From Pseudomonadota bacterium (GTDB lineage Bacteria; Pseudomonadota; Gammaproteobacteria; Burkholderiales; Gallionellaceae): a stretch of DNA of 35,746 nt. Below, one piece after another: positions 4,653 through 14,647 of this stretch. The translations under genes were made by a program, and so were the position numbers. The stretch lies in assembly GCA_021783995.1 (NCBI GenBank), contig JAJXTH010000005.1, positions 76,592 through 112,337 of the forward strand. The letters run 5' to 3'. Numbering within the stretch: position 1 is the first letter of the stretch; each line of letters starts with the position of its first letter. The notes under the pieces were generated by a model. That model worked only from the letters and a program-made list of their open reading frames with translations. It had not been told where the DNA came from and ran no database searches.

Positions 4653-5336
4653 ATGCAGGCCATGAAAAATTTTCTGCTGAGCGCCTGCCTCTTGTTATTA
4701 TGCGCCCCATCCTTCGCCGCGCAGGATCATGCTGCAGTGAAAGATGCGGCCGCCGCCTTCATCAGGCAACAAACGGCCGACCTGTCAGGCAAAGTCGCCC
4801 TGAGCGTGGGAACCATCGATGACCGACTGGTGCTGGATGACTGCAAAAGAATGGAAGCATTCCTGCCAGCCGGAAGTCAGCTCATAGGACGCGTCTCTGT
4901 CGGCGTGCGCTGCCTCAATCCGCAAGGCTGGCGCGTCTTCGTTCCAGTGGAGATCAAGGTCACGCGCGATCTCATCATCAGCGCAAAGCCACTGTCTAAT
5001 GGCCAGACCCTGCGTGCAGAGGACATTGCGAGGCAACGCACGGAAATCACTCAGGAAATTGGCGTAACCGATGAAAAGCGCGTGCTGGGGAAGGTGCTGC
5101 GCTACAGCATTGCAGCAGGCTCCATCATCAGGCCGGAAATGCTGCGCTCAGCCTACATCGTAAAACAGGGACAGGCCGTGCAGATCATCGTGAAAGGCGG
5201 CGGATTCACTCTGAGCAATACAGGCATCGCGCTCAACAATGCAGGTACGGGAGACAGCGTGCAGGTTCGCATCGAATCCGGGCGCGTGATCAGTGGCACC
5301 GCAATGGATAACGGTTCGGTCGAAATCAACCCCTAA
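4653..5336 (+). CDS. flgA: P-ring assembly chaperone FlgA
   Basis: FlgA is a periplasmic chaperone that helps FlgI form the P-ring around the rod. The 227-residue protein has a clear Sec signal peptide (MKNFLLSACLLLLCAPSFA, cleavage likely after ...FAA) from the second Met. It then shows the SAF-domain pattern with a Cys pair in DDCKRMEAF and VGVRCLNPQGWRVFVPV, and the C-terminal GGGFTLSNTGIALNNAGTGD block typical of FlgA. ATG 4653 gives three extra residues; ATG 4662 (MKNF) is an equally plausible start. It is transcribed away from flgB. Its stop overlaps by 4 bases the stop of the convergent PLP-enzyme gene, so no terminator fits between them. Confidence 0.93.
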   Translation: MQAMKNFLLSACLLLLCAPSFAAQDHAAVKDAAAAFIRQQTADLSGKVALSVGTIDDRLVLDDCKRMEAFLPAGSQLIGRVSVGVRCLNPQGWRVFVPVEIKVTRDLIISAKPLSNGQTLRAEDIARQRTEITQEIGVTDEKRVLGKVLRYSIAAGSIIRPEMLRSAYIVKQGQAVQIIVKGGGFTLSNTGIALNNAGTGDSVQVRIESGRVISGTAMDNGSVEINP

Positions 5337-6625
5337 ATCCGGTCGACCAGCCATGCCGTTTTATCCAGAACGGCCAGCACGTCGTCTTCCAGCCTTTTCA
5401 TACCTCCTGGCAACACCGCGTCGCTGATCAATCTGGCGCTCAAGGCGAGGCGCAAAGCGCTCAAATTTTTACCAATGAGAACCGGTTGCCCAAGCTGACA
5501 TCGCCGTCCGCCTATCACAGCGATGTCCGACACATTGAGCAGTTGGTAGACGCGCTGCGTTTCCTCCCGCGTGAGCGGCATCTTGTCGCGGCCGTGAAGC
5601 AGGAATGGAAAAATGCTCTGATGCATGTCCCAGCCTGCTTCAGTAGCAAGCGGCCTGCGGTCCATAGGCGTCACGGGAACCAATTCGAATCTCGGATCAC
5701 CTTCCAGACGTTGTCGCACGACCTTTGCGAAAGATTCCATGATGTTCGTGATCTGATTCTGTGAAAGAGCGCGAAATCGCCGGTGTTCGGCCAACGCGGC
5801 TTCCCATCGCAGCATCAGACCCGGATTCCTATGCTCAATCGCTTCCTTCACGTACCTTGGAGGCAGCATGAGCGCAGCAGAAAATGCCGGGCCGGTGAAG
5901 AACTTAGATCCCGTGATGGCGACCATGAAATCCTGTTTCAGATAGGCGCGCAGCGTCGATGGCGCAATGCGAAACTGGCAGGCATCGACCAGCACGCTGA
6001 CGTCTTGCGGATGGCGCTGGCAAAGCGAGATCGCGCATGAAATGCCAGGCGCGATCATTCCGGTCTTGGACTGATCCGCCAGGATGAGCAGCACATGATG
6101 GCCCGATGTCACTGCGGTTTCGACCATTGCGACCGCATCCGCATCGATCTCTTCCGGAGGGCGCGGTATTCCTGCCTCATCGCGCAGCGACACCGAGCTG
6201 ATTGCCAAGCGATGGACAGACATTGCGGCGCGCACGCCACTGCCGGTCTCGGATTCATTCACCATCACCACGGCAAGCTTCTTTGAACCTGAAAGCTGTT
6301 CGACTGCCAATGCATGTGCATCGGTGCCGGATTGAGCGAATGCCAGTCTGACGTTCAAGCCTGACAATTCGGCGAGCAGTTCCTCCCTGATGCGCTGCCA
6401 CGCCGACCCCATCGTGTCAGTCCGATCAAGCAGGCGCTCGCGAAGCCTTGCTGCCGCGGCATAGCCCAATCGTGAAACGACCGATGCCGTGGAAGAGCCG
6501 AAGGCCAGCAGCTCCGGATCAGGCCTGGGGGGGCAACCGTACTTGTTCAGCCCGGCTGGATCGAGCGCGATGCGCGCATCATTGCCTGCGACCAGCAGCG
6601 TTTCGATGTCCGGCAGACTCATCAT
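5333..6625 (-). CDS. PLP-dependent fold-type I enzyme of unknown reaction (cassette gene 3)
   Basis: I do not recognise a named enzyme. The 430-residue protein has the hallmarks of an aminotransferase class V-like PLP enzyme. These are a phosphate-cradle SGTDA at about 99-103, the D-x-x-Q pair in VDACQF (D214, Q217) expected to hold the pyridine nitrogen and O3', and a likely Schiff-base lysine in TGSKFFTGPAF (K241). All cofactor residues look intact, so it is probably active. The N-terminus NKYGCPPRPDPELLAFGSSTAS is unusual, with an Asn-Lys-Tyr-Gly-Cys block that may line the active site. The ATG overlaps the ATP-grasp stop (ATGATG over TGA). It is the third gene of the cassette and converges with flgA. 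Confidence 0.75.
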   Translation of the reverse strand: MMSLPDIETLLVAGNDARIALDPAGLNKYGCPPRPDPELLAFGSSTASVVSRLGYAAAARLRERLLDRTDTMGSAWQRIREELLAELSGLNVRLAFAQSGTDAHALAVEQLSGSKKLAVVMVNESETGSGVRAAMSVHRLAISSVSLRDEAGIPRPPEEIDADAVAMVETAVTSGHHVLLILADQSKTGMIAPGISCAISLCQRHPQDVSVLVDACQFRIAPSTLRAYLKQDFMVAITGSKFFTGPAFSAALMLPPRYVKEAIEHRNPGLMLRWEAALAEHRRFRALSQNQITNIMESFAKVVRQRLEGDPRFELVPVTPMDRRPLATEAGWDMHQSIFPFLLHGRDKMPLTREETQRVYQLLNVSDIAVIGGRRCQLGQPVLIGKNLSALRLALSARLISDAVLPGGMKRLEDDVLAVLDKTAWLVDRI

Positions 6626-7824
6626 CTCAAGCGCCCTGCTTTTCTATCCAGCAGCATCTGGTAGAAGGCATCGAAGATGCGATGCATCGGCTCTTGCTTG
6701 TAACCATAGATATCGACCGGATCGAGGGCGTGCACGATCATGCAGCTATCCGCTTCGAAGATCAGGAGACGACCGTCTGCCGTCTCTGCGCAATCGATAC
6801 CCAGATAATCGAGCCCTATTCTTTTGTATATCGCCTTGAAGGCTGCCGCGTGCCGGACCGCAAAGTCCTGATCGAATTCCACCATGAAGCGCGCTTCCTC
6901 GTCTCTCTTCTCGACGCTATCCTTCATTCCTGCATTCGCATAATGTATCATCCAGTGGGACGATATGGCCATGTGGCAGATATAGGGACGCCCCGCGATC
7001 AGCACGATGCGGCATTTGCGGAACAATCCGTCGGTTTTCCGGTAGTCGACAAAGCGCGACACATAAAATTCGTCGCCGTCCACGGAAGACAGATAGCCCG
7101 CTATCCCGACAGCATCGTCCATCTTTTGCAGCCCGTTTCCGGCATGCGAGTCTACGGGGCGCACGATCAAGGGAAAATCGATTCCGACTGACTTTGTCGC
7201 TCCCGCCAGATTTTCAAGCGCTTCCCTGCCCGTTCTCACCGTTACGGGCATCTCTATTCCTGGCGCATCCTGCAAAAGCAAAGCACAGTTGTCGCGAGAC
7301 AGCGCAGCGATGCGCAATGGATCGTTCAGCACGGGAACAGGCCAGGAGGCGAGGGTTTTCGCCACTTTCTTCAAAACCGGAATATTCTTTTCGGATTCGG
7401 CAATCGCAACGAACAGCGCGTCGTGCTCTGGCAAACGATCGGGCATGTCGAGCTCTTCAGTCACATACACGATATGCAGCGCCACGTCCTTGTCCTCGAT
7501 CAGACATTCGATAGGCGAATTGGCCATCAGGTCGCCTTCGCTCATGATCAAGAGCAGCCTGATCGCGGCCTTTTCAGGCTCCGCTCCCATGACAGGGTAA
7601 GTCTGCTGGAGCGACAATGCCTGGCGCTGCATGCTCAAGCCCAGTTCGCGCTCTCCCCGCAACTGCAATATCGTCGAAAGATCCAGCAGTGCAGAGGCGT
7701 CTTTCGGGTTTCTGTCTGCGCGCGCGATAAGTTGCACGCCAATCGACCCCATGTCCTCCCCGGCTATCGTCATGCGCATCAATCTTGCCAATCCGATCAG
7801 CCTGTTTTCCGGCATCTCACTCAT
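6622..7824 (-). CDS. ATP-grasp ligase with TPR-like N-terminus (cassette gene 2)
   Basis: The 400-residue protein has a short TPR-like helical pair (about residues 28-73, ...NPKDASALLDLSTILQLRG...), a Rossmann-like pre-ATP domain (about 88-200), then an ATP-grasp core. In the core, FPLIVRPVDSHAGNGL (217-232) fits the ATP-binding strand and glycine-rich loop. YLGID (340-344) and LLIFEADS (353-360) fit the Mg-binding strands. In RimK-type ligases the last motif is usually E-x-N; here it is E357-A-D359. Such enzymes join a carboxylate to an amine through an acyl-phosphate. With a decarboxylase upstream and a PLP enzyme downstream, an amide-forming step in small-molecule synthesis is inferred. 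Substrates are unknown. It overlaps the decarboxylase gene by 8 bases. Confidence 0.75.
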   Translation of the reverse strand: MSEMPENRLIGLARLMRMTIAGEDMGSIGVQLIARADRNPKDASALLDLSTILQLRGERELGLSMQRQALSLQQTYPVMGAEPEKAAIRLLLIMSEGDLMANSPIECLIEDKDVALHIVYVTEELDMPDRLPEHDALFVAIAESEKNIPVLKKVAKTLASWPVPVLNDPLRIAALSRDNCALLLQDAPGIEMPVTVRTGREALENLAGATKSVGIDFPLIVRPVDSHAGNGLQKMDDAVGIAGYLSSVDGDEFYVSRFVDYRKTDGLFRKCRIVLIAGRPYICHMAISSHWMIHYANAGMKDSVEKRDEEARFMVEFDQDFAVRHAAAFKAIYKRIGLDYLGIDCAETADGRLLIFEADSCMIVHALDPVDIYGYKQEPMHRIFDAFYQMLLDRKAGRLR

Positions 7825-9268
7825 TCATACTCCAAAGCTTCTCGCCCAGAGCAAGCACGGCATCGACCAATGCATCGATGTCGCGCTTCTCTGTGCGGTG
7901 ATTGACGATGGCAGCGCGTATCGCAAGCCTACCCTTTACCATTGTTGTCGAGGGCGCTGCAATGCCTGATTCCTGGAGTGCCACGACGATGTCGGCATTG
8001 AGCTTGTCGCTTCCCTGATATCGGAAACACACGATGTTCAACGCAACCGGCGCCAGCATTTCCAGCATCGGGGCAGCCTCGATGCGCTGCTTGAGATATC
8101 GGGCCAGCACACAGGTATTCGAGATCATGCTCCCAAGCTTCTCCGCTCCATACACCTTAAGCGTAAACCATGCCTTCAGCGCCCTGAAGCTCCTTGAAAG
8201 ATCAGGCCCGAAATCACATGGCCAGGGAGAGCCTGCCGCCATGCCGCGCAGTTCGCGCTGAAGATAGGCTGCAGGCGTTGCAAAGGCACGGCGATGCAAT
8301 TCGCCATCCTTCACCAGCACGAAGCCTGCATCGTAGGGCACCTGTCCCCACTTGTGAAAATCGAATGCAATGGAATCTGCGCGCTCCATGCCCTTCAGCA
8401 TGGGCGCGATATCCGGCGACAACATGCCCAGCGCACCATAAGCCCCGTCCACATGCAACCACAGGCCATGGCGTTTTGCGATATCGGCAATCTCATCCAG
8501 CGGATCGATGGCGCCGACATCCACCGTGCCAGCTGTTGCGGTTATCATGAACGGTTTTAATCCTTGTGCCCTGTCTTTTACGATCGCCGCTTCGAGTGCT
8601 TTCACGTCCATTTGGAAATTTTCATCCAGGCACACCTTGCGCAGCGCCAAGGTACCCAGCCCTGCCATGTCCATCGCCTGGGCGATGCTGACATGAGCGC
8701 TGCCGGATGCATATGCGACAAGACCGTGATCGACACTCAGGCCCTCATCGCGCACAGCCACGCCCAGATGGGCTGCGCGCGCGACCAGCACGCTGATGAA
8801 GTTGGCCATCGAGGTGCCGGTGACGAAAAGACCGCTGGCCGTATCGGGGAATGAGAATAACTCGCGCATCCAGCGCAGGACCTGCCTCTCGACTTCCACC
8901 GGCATCTGCTCTCTTCCGCCCAGATTGGCGTTAAGCCCTGCCGAGAGCATCTCCGCCATCATGCCGACCGGCGTGCCCCCACCATGCACCCAGCCCATGA
9001 ATCCAGGATGCGCATTGCCTATTGCATAAGGCAGCACATCCTGCATGAAAATCGCATGCGCTGATGTCATGTCAGCAGACTGCTCCGGCATGTCCTGATT
9101 GAATGCGTCGCGGACTGCCGGCGGTATCGTCTGCCATACAGGACGGCTGCGCAAATTCTCTGTGTAGTCGAGCATGTCATCAAGCATGCGATGGCTTTGT
9201 CGCCGGAAATCCTGCCAGTCTTCAGGATCCAGCGTTTCTCCGGACGTTTCCAAATATATGCGCTCCAT
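7817..9268 (-). CDS. Group II PLP-dependent amino acid decarboxylase (cassette gene 1)
   Basis: This 483-residue protein belongs to the aromatic-L-amino-acid/glutamate decarboxylase family, which removes CO2 from an L-amino acid to give an amine. Numbering is from the chosen start. Motifs are HPGFMGWVHGGGTPVG (near 87), TGTSMANF (150-157), the cofactor-stacking His in SAHVS (H192), HVDGAYG with the pyridine-binding Asp (D274), and the Schiff-base lysine in DFHKWGQ (K306). Substrate specificity cannot be read from sequence. An in-frame ATG at 9337 would add 23 residues (MDVLCPVHDQQ...) unlike the family and would run through a strong inverted repeat; ATG 9268 (MERIYLE) is preferred. It begins a three-gene operon divergent from flgM. 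Confidence 0.9.
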   Translation of the reverse strand: MERIYLETSGETLDPEDWQDFRRQSHRMLDDMLDYTENLRSRPVWQTIPPAVRDAFNQDMPEQSADMTSAHAIFMQDVLPYAIGNAHPGFMGWVHGGGTPVGMMAEMLSAGLNANLGGREQMPVEVERQVLRWMRELFSFPDTASGLFVTGTSMANFISVLVARAAHLGVAVRDEGLSVDHGLVAYASGSAHVSIAQAMDMAGLGTLALRKVCLDENFQMDVKALEAAIVKDRAQGLKPFMITATAGTVDVGAIDPLDEIADIAKRHGLWLHVDGAYGALGMLSPDIAPMLKGMERADSIAFDFHKWGQVPYDAGFVLVKDGELHRRAFATPAAYLQRELRGMAAGSPWPCDFGPDLSRSFRALKAWFTLKVYGAEKLGSMISNTCVLARYLKQRIEAAPMLEMLAPVALNIVCFRYQGSDKLNADIVVALQESGIAAPSTTMVKGRLAIRAAIVNHRTEKRDIDALVDAVLALGEKLWSMNE

Positions 9269-9323: not shown

Positions 9324-9396
9324 CACAAAACGTCCATTTATTCGGAAGTCCGGCATCTGTTACAATGAAATCTACCGGGAAATATCAAAATAGTTC

Positions 9397-9423
9397 TAAA
9401 GTTTTCTCAAGACTTTCCGATAT
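9397..9423 (+). promoter_or_regulatory. Sigma-28 (FliA) promoter for flgM-flgN
   Basis: TAAA (9397-9400), 15 bases, then TCCGATAT (9416-9423) match the sigma-28 consensus TAAA-N15-GCCGATAA at all four -35 bases, the exact spacing, and six of eight -10 bases. It lies 43 bases upstream of the flgM ATG. This is the expected late-class promoter, by which FliA drives its own anti-sigma factor. Confidence 0.8.
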
Positions 9424-9466: not shown

Positions 9467-9772
9467 ATGAAAATCGAAAAGCCATCCAACACAGCCCGAA
9501 CCAGCAACCCGGGGGTCGCGACTGCACGCACAAACAGTGCAAAAAACGAAACCGTGCAGCAACAGTCGGGCACCAGCGTTTCTCTGGGTTCGAATGCGGC
9601 TCAGCTTTCCAGCATGCAGGCAAGCATGGCGAATGCGCCCGTCGTGGATGCAAACAAGGTGGCACAGATCAAGCAGGCCATCAGCAACGGGAATTTCAAG
9701 GTCAACTCCGCCATGGTCGCAGACCGCCTGATCCAGTCCGTGCATGACCTGATCAACAACAAGCAGGCATGA
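9467..9772 (+). CDS. flgM: Anti-sigma-28 factor FlgM
   Basis: FlgM binds FliA and holds late flagellar genes off until the hook is finished, when it is exported through the basal body. The 101-residue protein has a disordered polar N-terminus (export signal region, MKIEKPSNTA...) and the conserved sigma-binding C-terminus VDANKVAQIKQAISNG... followed by VADRLIQSVHDLI. The ATG has AAGAGGATC just upstream. It is preceded by a sigma-28 promoter and overlaps flgN by 4 bases (ATGA). Confidence 0.95.
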   Translation: MKIEKPSNTARTSNPGVATARTNSAKNETVQQQSGTSVSLGSNAAQLSSMQASMANAPVVDANKVAQIKQAISNGNFKVNSAMVADRLIQSVHDLINNKQA

Positions 9773-10239
9773 CCCCGCTTGCGAATCTCCTTGCCGCATT
9801 GACGGAGGAACACGCCGCCGTCTCCGATTTTGTCGCGCTCTTGCAGCAGGAGCAGAAGATGCTGACCGAAAACAGCACCGATGAGCTGGCTGTTCTCGCA
9901 GAGCAGAAGTCAAACCATGCAGTAAAAATCAACAAGATTGCAGAAGGCCGCCATCGTATGCTGCAGTCACTGATCCCGGAACTCACTGCCAGCAGCATTC
10001 GGGACTGGATGGAAATCAACAGCAGGCAAAGCCTTGATCTGTGGCAGAAAATACTCGTCCTTTCCGATCAGGCACGCGAATTGAACCGCGTCAATGGTGA
10101 ACTGATACAGATGAAATTGCGCCACAATCAGCAGTTGCTCGGCACGCTGAGCCGGGCGGTCAATCAGTCCAGTCTTTACGGTCCGAACGGCCAGACCAAC
10201 TTTCCGACGGGTAGCGGCAGGTCGCTCGGCCTGGGCTAG
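9769..10239 (+). CDS. flgN: Flagellar export chaperone FlgN
   Basis: FlgN binds the hook-filament junction proteins FlgK and FlgL in the cytoplasm and passes them to the export gate. The 156-residue product is all-helical: TEEHAAVSDFVALLQQEQKMLTE near residues 13-35, then a long coiled helix (LSDQARELNRVNGELIQMKLRHNQQLL) typical of the FlgN family. Assignment rests on this pattern and on the 4-base overlap with flgM, since FlgN sequences are poorly conserved. The Gly/Ser-rich tail is probably flexible. Its stop overlaps by 4 bases the stop of the convergent motB gene. Confidence 0.92.
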   Translation: MTPLANLLAALTEEHAAVSDFVALLQQEQKMLTENSTDELAVLAEQKSNHAVKINKIAEGRHRMLQSLIPELTASSIRDWMEINSRQSLDLWQKILVLSDQARELNRVNGELIQMKLRHNQQLLGTLSRAVNQSSLYGPNGQTNFPTGSGRSLGLG

Positions 10240-11755: not shown

Positions 11756-12462
11756 TACCCTTTCAATGCGGCACGCAGCCGTGCCACGGCCTGACTGTGC
11801 AGCTGGGAAACGCGGGACTCGCTGACGCCGAACACCTCCCCGATTTCACGCAAGTTCATCTCCTGCTCATAGATCATGCCCATCAGCATGCGCTCGCGTT
11901 CGGGAAGATGGTCGATCGCCCGGGTCAGCTCTGCCTTGAAGCGCTCGTCATGAAGCATTGCCTGCGGATCGATATCGTTGGAAAATTCGAAACGCTCGAA
12001 GAAATCGTCGTGATCTTCGTCCTGGAAGTCCTCATAGTAGACCAGCTGCGCACCTCTGGCTTCCTGCAGCATCTCCTGGTATTCGGTCAGGCTGACATCC
12101 AGTTCCTTCGCGATCTCGGTCTCGTTCGGAGCGCGGCCCAGCTTCTGCTGCAAGCGGCTGACGGACTGCTCGATGCGCCTCATGTCGCGCCGCAAGCCGC
12201 GCGGCAGCCAGTCTGCGCTGCGCAGTTCATCCAGCATTGCGCCGCGTATGCGCTGCGTTGCATAGGTTTCGAACTGTGCCCCGTGTATCTCGTCATAACG
12301 GCTTGCCGCATCCAGCAGCCCCATCATCCCTGCCTGGATGATGTCGTCGATCTGCACGCTATAGGGCAATCTGCTCATCATCTGATGAGCCAGACGCTTG
12401 ACCATGGGGGCATAATCCCTCAGACACTGATCTTTGTCCTGCAATCCGGATGCGTTATACAT
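11752..12462 (-). CDS. fliA: Flagellar sigma factor FliA (sigma-28)
   Basis: FliA directs RNA polymerase to late flagellar and chemotaxis promoters. The 236-residue protein begins MYNASGLQDKDQCLRDY and has region 2 (YSVQIDDIIQAGMMGLLDAASRYD and FETYATQRIRGAMLDELR, about 40-85), with the FliA-typical DWLPRGLRRDMR after it. The region 4 helix-turn-helix is NLREIGEVFGVSESRVSQLHSQAVARLR near the C-terminus. Length (about 240) is normal. The start is supported by homology but has no clear Shine-Dalgarno sequence; a 13-base inverted repeat lies directly upstream. It follows flhG by 72 bases and overlaps motA by 4. Confidence 0.97.
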   Translation of the reverse strand: MYNASGLQDKDQCLRDYAPMVKRLAHQMMSRLPYSVQIDDIIQAGMMGLLDAASRYDEIHGAQFETYATQRIRGAMLDELRSADWLPRGLRRDMRRIEQSVSRLQQKLGRAPNETEIAKELDVSLTEYQEMLQEARGAQLVYYEDFQDEDHDDFFERFEFSNDIDPQAMLHDERFKAELTRAIDHLPERERMLMGMIYEQEMNLREIGEVFGVSESRVSQLHSQAVARLRAALKGY

Positions 12463-12464
12463 AA

Positions 12465-12477
12465 TTATGAATCATAA
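12465..12477. promoter_or_regulatory. 13-bp inverted repeat TTATGA-A-TCATAA at the fliA start
   Basis: A perfect 6+6 bp repeat with one central base lies 3-15 bases upstream of the fliA ATG, where a Shine-Dalgarno sequence would be expected and none is seen. It may be a protein-binding site or a short RNA element that limits fliA translation. It is short and AT-rich, so chance cannot be ruled out. Confidence 0.3.
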
Positions 12478-12489
12478 AGCGTAGATCAA

Positions 12490-12517
12490 TTTATATCCAG
12501 ATGACATTGTCAGGCAA
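12490..12517 (-). promoter_or_regulatory. Candidate sigma-70 promoter for fliA-motA-motB
   Basis: On the minus strand TTGCCT (12517-12512), 16 bases, TATAAA (12495-12490) lie in the 72-base gap between flhG and fliA, 28 bases before the fliA ATG. Four of six -35 bases and five of six -10 bases match consensus. It would let fliA be transcribed independently of flhBAFG. Confidence 0.35.
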
Positions 12518-12534
12518 ACATGCGCGCTTCACAA

Positions 12535-13464
12535 CTATGCCAGTTGGCGCTTATGCTGTCCGATCAGGGTTCTCATCATCCGCGCAATATCGCCTTGCAA
12601 TCCATACTGCTGTACTGTCATGTTCAAAACGCTCTGCGACAGGGCAAGGCATGACCTGGCCGAGACTGCCGAAGGATACGCCTCCACCACGGCACGGCCC
12701 AACTGCGTTGACCGTTTCATCCTGTCATCCTTTAGTATGCAGCCCAGATATTCAAGCCTGGCTGCAAGATTCGCCCTCGCCACCTTTTCGATGTTCCCGA
12801 ACACGATTCTTGCGGTCTTTTCATCGGCAACCTTGTTCACCACAATTTCGAAGTGCAGCCTTGCATGTTCCAGCGCGAGCCGCTTGATCAGCGCATAGCT
12901 TTGCGTGATGCCGCTCGAGGTTGCATCCATCACGACCAGCATTCTTACGCCAAAGGCAAGACTGGATGACATGACTGCCTCTTGTTCCAGCATCGCGGCA
13001 TCAATCAGCATCACATCGACCCCATTTCCGGCTTCCCGCAGTATGTCTTCAAGCCGCTGCTGTTCGGGCACGGTCAGCCTGGGCAACGCGCGCATCAGCC
13101 TTGCCATGGGGAGAATCGCGCATCCATGAGCAGTCACGATCGCATCCACAAGCTGACAGCGCCCCTGTATCACGTCCAGCAGATCATGGCGAGCAAGCAA
13201 CCCCACACTGTCAGTCAGATTGTGCGGTGCAGGGTTTTCATCCAGTATCAGCACATCCCGGCCTGCGCTGCACAATGCAGTTGCGAGATTGAGCGTCACA
13301 CTGGTGCGCCCTGCGCCACGCTTGCCCGATACCAGCGTGATGATCTGTGGCTGGTTGCACACCAGCATGCGTCGAAGGCCTTCCGCCTGATCATCGGCTC
13401 CCAGCCGCCTCGCGGCTGCTTTCCCTGACACCTTACTACCCAGCACTCCGATCTCACATTGCAC
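12535..13464 (-). CDS. flhG: Flagellar number regulator FlhG (FleN/YlxH), divergent P-loop
   Basis: FlhG is a MinD/ParA-like ATPase that limits flagellar number and stimulates the FlhF GTPase. The 309-residue protein keeps the FlhF-activating motif DQAEGLRRM (residues 25-33) and the MinD-fold strands around IITLVSG. The deviant Walker A is SGKRGAGRTS (46-55): the first lysine is kept, but the usual G-K-T lysine is Arg. The Walker A' Asp is DENPAPHN rather than D-x-D-x-G-x-x-N. C-terminal amphipathic helices (residues about 270-305) may bind membrane. Placement after flhF (11-base overlap) and before fliA fixes identity. Confidence 0.9.
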   Translation of the reverse strand: MQCEIGVLGSKVSGKAAARRLGADDQAEGLRRMLVCNQPQIITLVSGKRGAGRTSVTLNLATALCSAGRDVLILDENPAPHNLTDSVGLLARHDLLDVIQGRCQLVDAIVTAHGCAILPMARLMRALPRLTVPEQQRLEDILREAGNGVDVMLIDAAMLEQEAVMSSSLAFGVRMLVVMDATSSGITQSYALIKRLALEHARLHFEIVVNKVADEKTARIVFGNIEKVARANLAARLEYLGCILKDDRMKRSTQLGRAVVEAYPSAVSARSCLALSQSVLNMTVQQYGLQGDIARMMRTLIGQHKRQLA

Positions 13465-14647
13465 AGGACACCTCGCCGTTCAATCCTGCCATGACCATCG
13501 GAAATTCCATCTCATCAAGCGCATAGGGCGACTTTTCCTCCTGCGCTTTGAATGCGCGATGCAGCAGCACGTCGATGTTGACTGGATGCAGATCTTCCGG
13601 CACACGCTGCCCATTAGTAACGAAGCACATCATCAAGCGATGGCGCACCACCACATCCAGCAAACCGCCCAGGTTGACCGCCTCATCGAGCTTGGTCGCA
13701 ATGCACCCCATCACTTGCCTGTTGTGGTACATGCGCACCACATCCTCCAGTGTATCTCCGCTGCTGGTCGCATTGAGCATCAGCAAGCGCGCAACATTCG
13801 CCTCGTCGAACATCTCGTTCTGCTCAACCACACGTTCGTCTCGCTGCCCCATGCCTATCGTGTCTATCAGCACAAGATGCTTGTGGCGCAATGCAGAAAG
13901 CGTGAGCCGCAGATCATCAGCCCCCTTCACCGCATGCACTGTCACGCCGAGTATCTTGCCGTATATCTTGAGCTGTTCATAAGCGCCTATCCGGTAGCTG
14001 TCCGTGGTCAGTAGCGCGACCTTCTCCGCGCCATAGCGCACCACCGCGCGCGCGGCGAGCTTGGCGGTGGTGGTCGTCTTGCCAACACCTGTGGGGCCTA
14101 TCAGCGCATAAGTCCCTCCTTTGGCCACAATGTCATCATCAGTTTCTGCAACGCGCACATTGCGCTTCAATACCTGCTTGATCCAAAGTTCGCCCTTTTC
14201 GTCACCGGAGGGCAACTTGCCTAGCAACTGTCGCGCGAGCAGCGTGCTGAAACCCGCATTGATCAGGCGACGCAACAGGGTAGCACGCTGCGGGTCGCGC
14301 TGCTGTACATTGCCCCAGGACAGCGTTTCGATCTGCCTTTGCAACTTGCTGTGCATCGACTTGATCTCGCCAAGCAGCACTGACTCCGGGTGCTGGACTG
14401 CAGCGCCGGACGCGAATGCCTTGGGTTCTGCAATCGCTGGCGCAGGTTGCATTTCCTGAACTGCAGGCGCATGTCTGGCAAGAGCAGAGTCCGACAGCTT
14501 TGCAATATCATCTCCGTTCATCGCGACGATCTCGACGCCATCCGCGACGGCACGATTAGACAGGATGACCGCATCCTCGCCCAGCTCATTGCGTATTTGC
14601 CTCAGCGCTTCGCGTGCGGTTGCGGCGATATATTTTTTGATGTTCAT
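13454..14647 (-). CDS. flhF: Flagellar biosynthesis GTPase FlhF (SRP family)
   Basis: FlhF is an SRP-type GTPase that marks where a flagellum is built and recruits the first basal-body proteins to the pole. The 397-residue protein has the N-terminal MNIKKYIAATAREALRQIR segment with GEDAVILSNR, a helical N domain (about 90-165), then the NG domain. That has G1 GPTGVGKTTTTAKLA (184-198), the G2-like TDSYRIGAYEQLKIYG, G3 DTIGMGQRD (262-270) and G4 TKLDEA. All nucleotide-binding motifs look intact. It overlaps flhA by 4 bases and flhG by 11. Its presence suggests polar or otherwise placed flagella. Confidence 0.97.
   Translation of the reverse strand: MNIKKYIAATAREALRQIRNELGEDAVILSNRAVADGVEIVAMNGDDIAKLSDSALARHAPAVQEMQPAPAIAEPKAFASGAAVQHPESVLLGEIKSMHSKLQRQIETLSWGNVQQRDPQRATLLRRLINAGFSTLLARQLLGKLPSGDEKGELWIKQVLKRNVRVAETDDDIVAKGGTYALIGPTGVGKTTTTAKLAARAVVRYGAEKVALLTTDSYRIGAYEQLKIYGKILGVTVHAVKGADDLRLTLSALRHKHLVLIDTIGMGQRDERVVEQNEMFDEANVARLLMLNATSSGDTLEDVVRMYHNRQVMGCIATKLDEAVNLGGLLDVVVRHRLMMCFVTNGQRVPEDLHPVNIDVLLHRAFKAQEEKSPYALDEMEFPMVMAGLNGEVSCAM

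Follow-up and report, generated by a model that had tools for sequence, protein, structure and literature searches.

A three-gene cassette between flgA and flgM

The window analyzed here is a stretch of 35,746 nucleotides from a member of the Gallionellaceae (Pseudomonadota; GenBank assembly GCA_021783995.1, contig JAJXTH010000005.1, positions 76,592 to 112,337 of the forward strand). Between its flagellar genes flgA and flgM lies a cassette of three genes on the reverse strand, named DEC, GRASP and PLP3 in this work, which encode a predicted amino acid decarboxylase dependent on pyridoxal phosphate (PLP), a probable ATP-grasp ligase with an N-terminus like a tetratricopeptide repeat (TPR), and a second probable PLP enzyme. 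The features of the locus, in positions of the window, are as follows.

7817-9268, - strand: DEC, predicted PLP-dependent amino acid decarboxylase (PF00282); 483 aa from the ATG at 9268, or 506 aa from an alternative start at 9337
6622-7824, - strand: GRASP, TPR-like N-terminal helices and a predicted ATP-grasp ligase of the RimK/LysX/Ddl type; 400 aa
5333-6625, - strand: PLP3, probable fold-type I PLP enzyme with a class V-like D-x-x-Q / Lys site; 430 aa
4653-5336, + strand: flgA, convergent with PLP3 (PF13144, E 2e-28)
9467-9772, + strand: flgM, divergent from DEC (PF04316, E 6.2e-16)
9769-10239, + strand: flgN (PF05130, E 2.4e-23)
9397-9423, + strand: sigma28-type promoter-like site of flgM, a match to the pattern TAAAGTTT-N11-TCCGATAT

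The genes are tightly packed, with overlaps of 8 bases between DEC and GRASP and of 4 bases, of the ATGA type, between GRASP and PLP3. The 3' ends of PLP3 and the convergent flgA also share 4 bases. The gap between DEC and flgM is 198 bases long and contains the sigma28-like site, which resembles the sigma28 consensus and is oriented to flgM and not to DEC. Nine related loci (L044-L050, L052 and L056) have a similar site before flgM. The G+C content of the cassette is 57.2%, and there is no sign of recent transfer, because both G+C and G+C at third codon positions (GC3) resemble those of the flagellar neighbors.

An earlier note, made from the sequence alone, had described three coupled open reading frames (ORFs) that overlap each other by 8 and 4 bases, overlap the stop of flgA and face flgM across a short promoter gap, and this layout is confirmed; Pfam also confirms its assignments of flgA, flgM and flgN. 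The labels that it gave to the three products also agree with the comparisons described below: amino acid decarboxylase with PF00282 (E 1e-66), TPR/ATP-grasp ligase with the profile and Foldseek matches, and fold-type I PLP enzyme with an AlphaFold model and Foldseek.

Predicted enzymes

DEC passes the gathering score of PF00282 with 225.7 bits against a cut-off of 27, over residues 98-440 of the 506-aa form, and is the sole match to that family in the window's genome, as available. The nearest solved chain is the tryptophan decarboxylase of R. gnavus (4obu, E 1.6e-64). Five residues, numbered from the ATG at 9268, are invariant in 13 of 13 aligned copies (H192, D274, H305, K306 and Y335). These include the PLP-binding His-Lys pair, H305/K306, and the decarboxylase-type loop tyrosine, Y335, to which a role is assigned by alignment to 4obu and by analogy with the aromatic amino acid decarboxylase AADC. 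DEC reaches no NCBIfam equivalog cut-off, the best being NF052646 with 207.5 of 900 bits. By family, DEC is a predicted amino acid decarboxylase.

A decarboxylase and an amide ligase also act together in methanofuran synthesis, where MfnA is followed by the tyramine:glutamate ligase MfnD, whose relative MyfA is an ATP-grasp enzyme (PMC8141765). The pairing of a PF00282 PLP tyrosine decarboxylase with an ATP-grasp-type tyramine:glutamate ligase resembles that of DEC with GRASP. The cassette differs in its extra PLP enzyme, in its flagellar linkage, and in the score of DEC against the MfnA model TIGR03812, which at 102.4 bits is below the cut-off of 299.4. A cassette that formed part of methylofuran or methanofuran synthesis, through ligation of tyramine and glutamate, would account for the enzyme classes and for the sub-cut-off match, but only 2 of the 47 genomes with PLP3 have a match to the formyltransferase of that pathway (PF02741), which is not found in the other 45 or in the window's genome. 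This pathway is therefore rejected as having almost no chance of being correct, and it is contradicted for the window's organism.

Neither GRASP nor PLP3 passes any named model. GRASP has no Pfam match, and its sole NCBIfam match, to TIGR00768 (RimK), is at 24.5 bits against a family cut-off of 143.4. The GRASP profile matches TPR chains and one RimK-like chain. Foldseek with an AlphaFold (AF2) model of pLDDT 88.5 finds a D-Ala-D-Ala ligase (Ddl) as the best match (E 5.3e-12), LysX/ArgX with LysW at TMt 0.63, and RimK as well. Two acidic residues, D344 and E357, are invariant in 17 of 17 rows and are presumably metal ligands, by analogy with RimK. The modeled fold and the conserved acidic residues place GRASP, as a predicted member, in the ATP-grasp superfamily.

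RimK and LysX ligate onto proteins, and GRASP resembles them in fold, in the weak TIGR00768 match and in the conserved acidic residues at the presumed metal site. It differs in scoring far below the family cut-off, in its TPR-like N-terminus and in its genomic setting. GRASP might thus be a RimK-like protein ligase, guided by its TPR-like helices, that joins an amine or amino acid supplied by DEC and PLP3 to a carboxylate of a flagellar protein. The presence of RimK and LysX among the structural neighbors and the TPR-like N-terminus would suit such a ligase, but structurally GRASP comes closest to ligases of small molecules (Ddl), and inspection by eye finds no acidic tail on FlgM or FlgN in the window, so that a direct protein ligase is considered unlikely.

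Three further GRASP paralogues are found in the window's genome outside the cassette, without adjoining DEC or PLP3 (L041:3057-4217 with L041:1241-3073; L042:10116-11522; L043:9548-11227). One is convergent with a TPR-sulfotransferase gene, and another is near genes that, judged from their N-termini, appear to be pilMNOPQ-like. Two other loci, L158:6069-9062 and L160, have two divergent GRASP copies and no DEC adjoining PLP3.

PLP3 has no match in Pfam (E <= 0.001) or NCBIfam (E <= 0.1), and its profile finds nothing among PDB sequences at E <= 1. With an AF2 model of pLDDT 88.1, all 50 PDB chains listed by Foldseek are PLP enzymes (E 1.4e-13 to 3.2e-11, TM 0.5-0.7), of fold type I; PLP decarboxylases are at the top (E 1.4e-13) and IscS is among the matches listed. 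Four residues, D214, Q217, K241 and R392, are invariant in 16 of 16 rows. Alignment by hhalign to SufS, IscS and CsdA of E. coli matches D214/Q217/K241 of PLP3 with D200/Q203/K226, at E 0.0027 and a probability of only 11%. The likeness to these class V PLP enzymes therefore lies in the aligned D-x-x-Q and lysine site, whereas PLP3 has no PF00266 match, and the part of SufS that is aligned (85-247) ends short of its Cys364. From the model, PLP3 is a probable fold-type I PLP enzyme that is class V-like. Profile comparison finds no homology between PLP3 and DEC, and no PLP3 relatives are found in viral contigs in one scan with the distant PLP3 of L260.

PLP3 is extended in some loci. In Sulfuricella T08 and G533 (L037:8025-10538 and L156:9085-11562) it has a C-terminal domain like that of methyltransferases dependent on S-adenosylmethionine (SAM), which is PRMT-like by eye. 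In L253, L263 and L266, PLP3 ORFs of 734-840 aa have an N-terminal extension of about 180-310 residues with no convincing Pfam match. DEC adjoins PLP3 in L263 and L266, and GRASP is not found there; the N-terminal extension may stand in for it.

The three genes as a unit

A scan of GTDB confirmed at least 577 PLP3 relatives, the best 80 of which were used, giving a sample that is biased to kin of the window. DEC, GRASP and PLP3 are collinear in 63 of these 80 loci, and fusions are found in 2 more. The remaining 15 have one or both partners missing or another order, several of them at contig ends. One fusion joins DEC to GRASP (915 aa, in one Methylobacter bin) and the other joins GRASP to PLP3 (918 aa, in one Sterolibacterium bin), each covering nearly the full length of both profiles; both loci are from metagenome bins, in which frame errors are possible. 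Among 61 related genomes, PLP3 is found in 16, and 14 of these, the window's own included, have all three genes together. Of the two exceptions, G018 has a cassette that a contig end truncates partway through GRASP, whereas the distant PLP3 of G052 has no partners. The three genes form an operon.

A role in defense against phage was considered and rejected, as there is no meaningful match among the PADLOC models: GRASP and PLP3 match none, and DEC gives weak partial matches (DndA, E 2.9e-4; SspA, E 1.1e-3).

Site of insertion in relatives

Eight of the 14 three-gene loci among relatives, again counting the window's own, are flanked by flgM beyond DEC and by flgA beyond PLP3. Two more, in G001 and G027, have flgM but, over the 2.0 and 4.7 kb that remain before the contig end, no flgA, and the other four are elsewhere or on short contigs. 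Of 24 genomes of the same genus without PLP3, 11 of the more complete were searched for flgA; it is found in 4, where flgM adjoins flgA in all 4 and flgN follows in 3, and there is no match in the other 7. Therefore, the cassette is an addition to an otherwise contiguous flgA-flgM block in flagellated members of the genus.

At the expected place of flgA in G027 (L033:10783-15300), PLP3 is followed by four co-directed genes. By eye, their products resemble a flavin monooxygenase or halogenase, a protein like a ketosynthase, a protein of the membrane or acyltransferase kind, and a glycosyltransferase, and the four may form a cluster of the aryl-polyene type.

Association with flagella

The distribution of PLP3 follows that of flagellin. 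In an even draw of 349 genomes from the order, with PLP3 in 40 and flagellin in 235 and the cross-table read by hand, flagellin is present in 39 of 40 genomes with PLP3 and in 196 of 309 without it (Fisher 1.3e-6). The sole flagellin-negative genome with PLP3, G490, is an assembly of 170 contigs. At the level of genera in this draw, flagellin is found in 15 of 15 with PLP3 against 110 of 148 overall (chance 0.009). In a draw of 276 genomes from the class, the window's genome alone has PLP3, and flagellin is present in 152. A draw from the phylum gave PLP3 in 25 of 397 genomes; 20 of 23 new positives were fetched, and flagellar neighbors are found at 6 of 12 three-gene loci, 5 of the 6 in one genus.

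The position of the cassette points in the same direction. The loci collected number 123 by distinct PLP3 sequence, some near-identical, and 93 of them carry DEC and GRASP. Within 10 kb, a flagellar gene is found near 43 of the 93 and none near 23; contig ends truncate the remaining 27. The sites of the 43 are flgA/flgM (18), a fliC-flaG-fliD-fliS cluster or part of one (18), flgE/flgK (6) and ycgR (1), and in 29 of them the flagellar gene is no more than 500 bases from the cassette. The nearest flagellar gene is flgA in 14 loci, fliS in 10, flgK in 5, flgM in 4, ycgR in 3, flaG in 3, fliC in 2, fliJ in 1 and flgB in 1, and therefore filament-stage or anti-sigma28 genes account for 24 of 43.

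As a control, 40 stretches of 20 kb were taken from 4 genomes at chosen regular places with the cassette left out. A flagellar gene is present in 3 of them under a strict count that drops the paralogue-prone fliA, fliI and motB, and in 7 with these included. The less biased order draw gave a strict flagellar neighbor at 12 of 27 loci against 3 of 40 controls (Fisher 7e-4); the 27 loci were fetched from the 40 positives, cut contigs were scored as misses, the 12 and the 27 were counted by hand, and 24 of the 27 are three-gene loci. Among PLP3 loci without either partner, none of the 11 uncut ones has a flagellar neighbor; of all 20 such loci, 2 have one, and in each of these PLP3 is at the edge of its contig. 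The flagellar linkage of the three-gene operon is therefore real.

Flagellar placement recurs across separate branches in the phylogeny of PLP3. A minimum of 15 switches between flagellar and non-flagellar places is needed on this FastTree phylogeny, in which 36 of 120 branches are open and long-branch warnings apply, and therefore the association was gained or lost many times. In one distant genus, 5 of 5 fetched genomes (six in the draw) have the order flgE-flgK-[flgL-like]-GT-like-PLP3-GRASP-DEC, where the flgL-like gene, read in two of them, gives only a sub-cut-off Flagellin_N match. A further distant genome (L262) has the cassette behind fliC-flaG-fliD-fliS. The gene directly before PLP3 in all five genomes of the distant genus (L252:8410-9213 and its equivalents in L254, L256, L258 and L260) encodes a protein of about 260-280 aa with no Pfam match and nothing firm in the PDB; its label as a possible GT-A glycosyltransferase (GT) is presumed from a DxD-like motif.

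Of 78 regions upstream of DEC, 5, from 4 genomes, contain a sigma28-type site, whereas 117 of 20,000 random stretches do (0.6%; p ~0.001). This p-value is optimistic, because the strict pattern was framed after looking at the top matches of the first scan.

The earlier note had proposed a link to motility, had raised the question of whether the three genes co-occur, and had asked whether they are always next to flgA and flgM. The link is upheld by the flagellin counts and by the 43 of 93 loci with a flagellar gene nearby. The families do co-occur, in the 63 collinear and two fused loci, and are found neither merely scattered nor joined only within a known unrelated pathway. Insertion between flgA and flgM holds for Gallionella-type loci, with a contiguous pair in 4 of 4 relatives, but fails as a general rule: it is one site of several, alongside fliC-flaG-fliD-fliS and flgE-flgK, and 23 of the 66 resolvable loci have no flagellar neighbor at all.

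The last figure, together with a G+C content that does not mark the cassette off, could suggest an operon of ordinary metabolism with no role in motility, located near flagellar genes by chance or through shared ecology. This is improbable in light of the near-universal flagellin among PLP3-bearing genomes, the separate flagellar contexts on the PLP3 tree, and the sigma28-type sites before DEC in four genomes.

A proposed pathway and its competitors

DEC, GRASP and PLP3 may catalyze three steps of one biosynthetic pathway of flagellated cells. DEC would convert an amino acid to an amine by decarboxylation, and GRASP would activate a carboxylate with ATP and join it to this amine, in the same chemistry as that of MfnA and MfnD. 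The part on which PLP3 would act is the amino-acid portion of either the precursor or the product, and in Sulfuricella-type loci a methylation may be carried out by the fused methyltransferase-like domain. The earlier note had already suggested that the set could make an amine, join it to a carboxylate and process it further, and this chemistry remains a proposal. The finished compound would most likely be placed on proteins of the filament or the hook-filament junction (flagellin, FliD, FlgK/L) and less likely on another flagellar protein. An amine-amide product of such a three-step pathway, serving the filament or the proteins of its junction, is given a probability of roughly 45%. The computations show the operon, the fold classes, the co-occurrence, the fusions and the linkage to flagellar genes, while the reactions with their order, the substrates and the attachment to the filament are inferred.

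There is a precedent in Shewanella oneidensis, where the ATP-grasp protein SfmE of the sfmABCDE operon takes part in flagellin modification and its deletion gives lighter flagellin and less spreading in soft agar (PMC3765264). The sfmABCDE operon is comparable as a flagellum-linked operon with an ATP-grasp ligase, and SfmD is a methyltransferase; it differs in its NeuB-like and thiamine pyrophosphate (TPP) enzymes and in the Maf gene upstream. The cassette has two PLP enzymes and no sugar enzyme, and no Maf match is found in the 39 flagellin-positive genomes with PLP3. The filament reading is favored over a free metabolite, which comes next, because of the logic of MfnA and MfnD and the precedent of SfmE.

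Several observations weigh against this reading. In the window itself, no sigma28-type site precedes DEC, and a looser weighted scan of the 78 upstream regions is only slightly above random. The resolvable three-gene loci without a flagellar gene within 10 kb include Methylobacter tundripaludum OWC-G53F and Nitrotoga M5. The commonest nearest gene, flgA, is a basal-body gene and not a filament gene, and neither a transferase nor a target is encoded in the cassette itself. Matches to Maf (PF01973) are found in 0 of 39 flagellated genomes with PLP3 against 4 of 39 without it, the latter hand-picked from the 196 flagellin-positive genomes and with 2 of the 4 matches over the cut-off; the control genomes with matches to this model are archaea. 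Finally, in four plasmid regions of Rhizobium and Sinorhizobium a PLP3 relative lies directly behind a gene for a nonribosomal peptide synthetase (NRPS), for an NRPS/polyketide synthase (PKS) or for an AMP-binding protein, and therefore PLP3 chemistry can serve amino-acid or peptide assembly without a flagellum.

The plasmid regions come from a tblastn search of PLSDB, where 33 records, from Rhizobium, Sinorhizobium and Neorhizobium, contain a relative of PLP3; among the ten matches listed, identity is 36-38% over at least 98% of the PLP3 query. In the four regions that were read (L223-L226, about 11968-13503), the homologues are annotated "hypothetical protein" and overlap the upstream gene in 3 of 4, and a phosphopantetheinyl transferase is nearby in three. 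They are possibly tailoring or off-loading enzymes of NRPS clusters, and such relatives lean to small-molecule or peptide chemistry. In G052 (L040:8102-18219), the distant PLP3 is found with ATPgrasp_ST (PF14397) instead of GRASP, and the NRPS next to it has domains for AMP binding, condensation and thioesterase activity. Another distant PLP3 (L265:9240-12086) is likewise paired with the sugar-transfer associated ATP-grasp family PF14397 in place of GRASP.

These relatives favor a cassette that makes a free small molecule for motile cells, such as a signal, an osmolyte, a metal ligand or an antimicrobial, with its siting near flagellar genes reflecting co-regulation. The NRPS and NRPS/PKS contexts in the four regions read of the 33 records and in G052, the 23 loci away from flagellar genes and the methyltransferase-like fusion would all fit such a product. 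Proteins with a GGDEF domain (11 of 80 loci) and methyl-accepting chemotaxis proteins (MCP; 7 of 80) are recurring neighbors, from neighbor clusters identified in part only, and would suit a signaling role; an exporter may also be among the recurring neighbors. The repeated placement beside flagellar genes on separate branches argues against it, and a free metabolite is thus a serious possibility, held to be less probable than an amine-amide used by the filament.

Relation to known flagellar modification

Like the loci of Maf and nonulosonic acid glycosylation of flagellin, part of the cassette loci are near fliC-fliD-fliS, and the filament is the presumed target. They differ in that Maf is not enriched in PLP3-bearing genomes, and therefore the usual nonulosonic-acid route is not indicated; decoration by a Maf-type glycan is not supported. 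Groups attached to flagella influence how these are assembled, as well as swimming and the recognition of surfaces; most of the known modifications are sugars or methyl groups.

No title or abstract on a flagellum-linked decarboxylase/ATP-grasp/PLP operon was found in searches of the open-licence literature of PubMed Central (PMC), and the ATP-grasp survey of Iyer et al. 2009 may mention part of it. Operons for flagellum-linked modification are already known, so that the novelty here would be the gene set, as a variant. The broader proposal, that the cassette represents an undescribed and widespread non-sugar, amine-amide modification, placed on flagellin or hook-filament proteins across Beta-, Gamma- and other Proteobacteria, is tentative and is held with less confidence than the filament reading itself.

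In short, a compact set of three genes, one of them from a family unmatched in Pfam and NCBIfam, has a distribution that tracks flagellin and is found repeatedly beside flagellar genes. It has cultured carriers in Methylobacter tundripaludum, where fliS is 6.3 kb from the cassette of strain SV96 (L064), and in Sulfuriferula multivorans, where fliC is 1.9 kb from that of strain TTN (L084). Should its target turn out to be the filament, the cassette would define a new class of flagellar modification.

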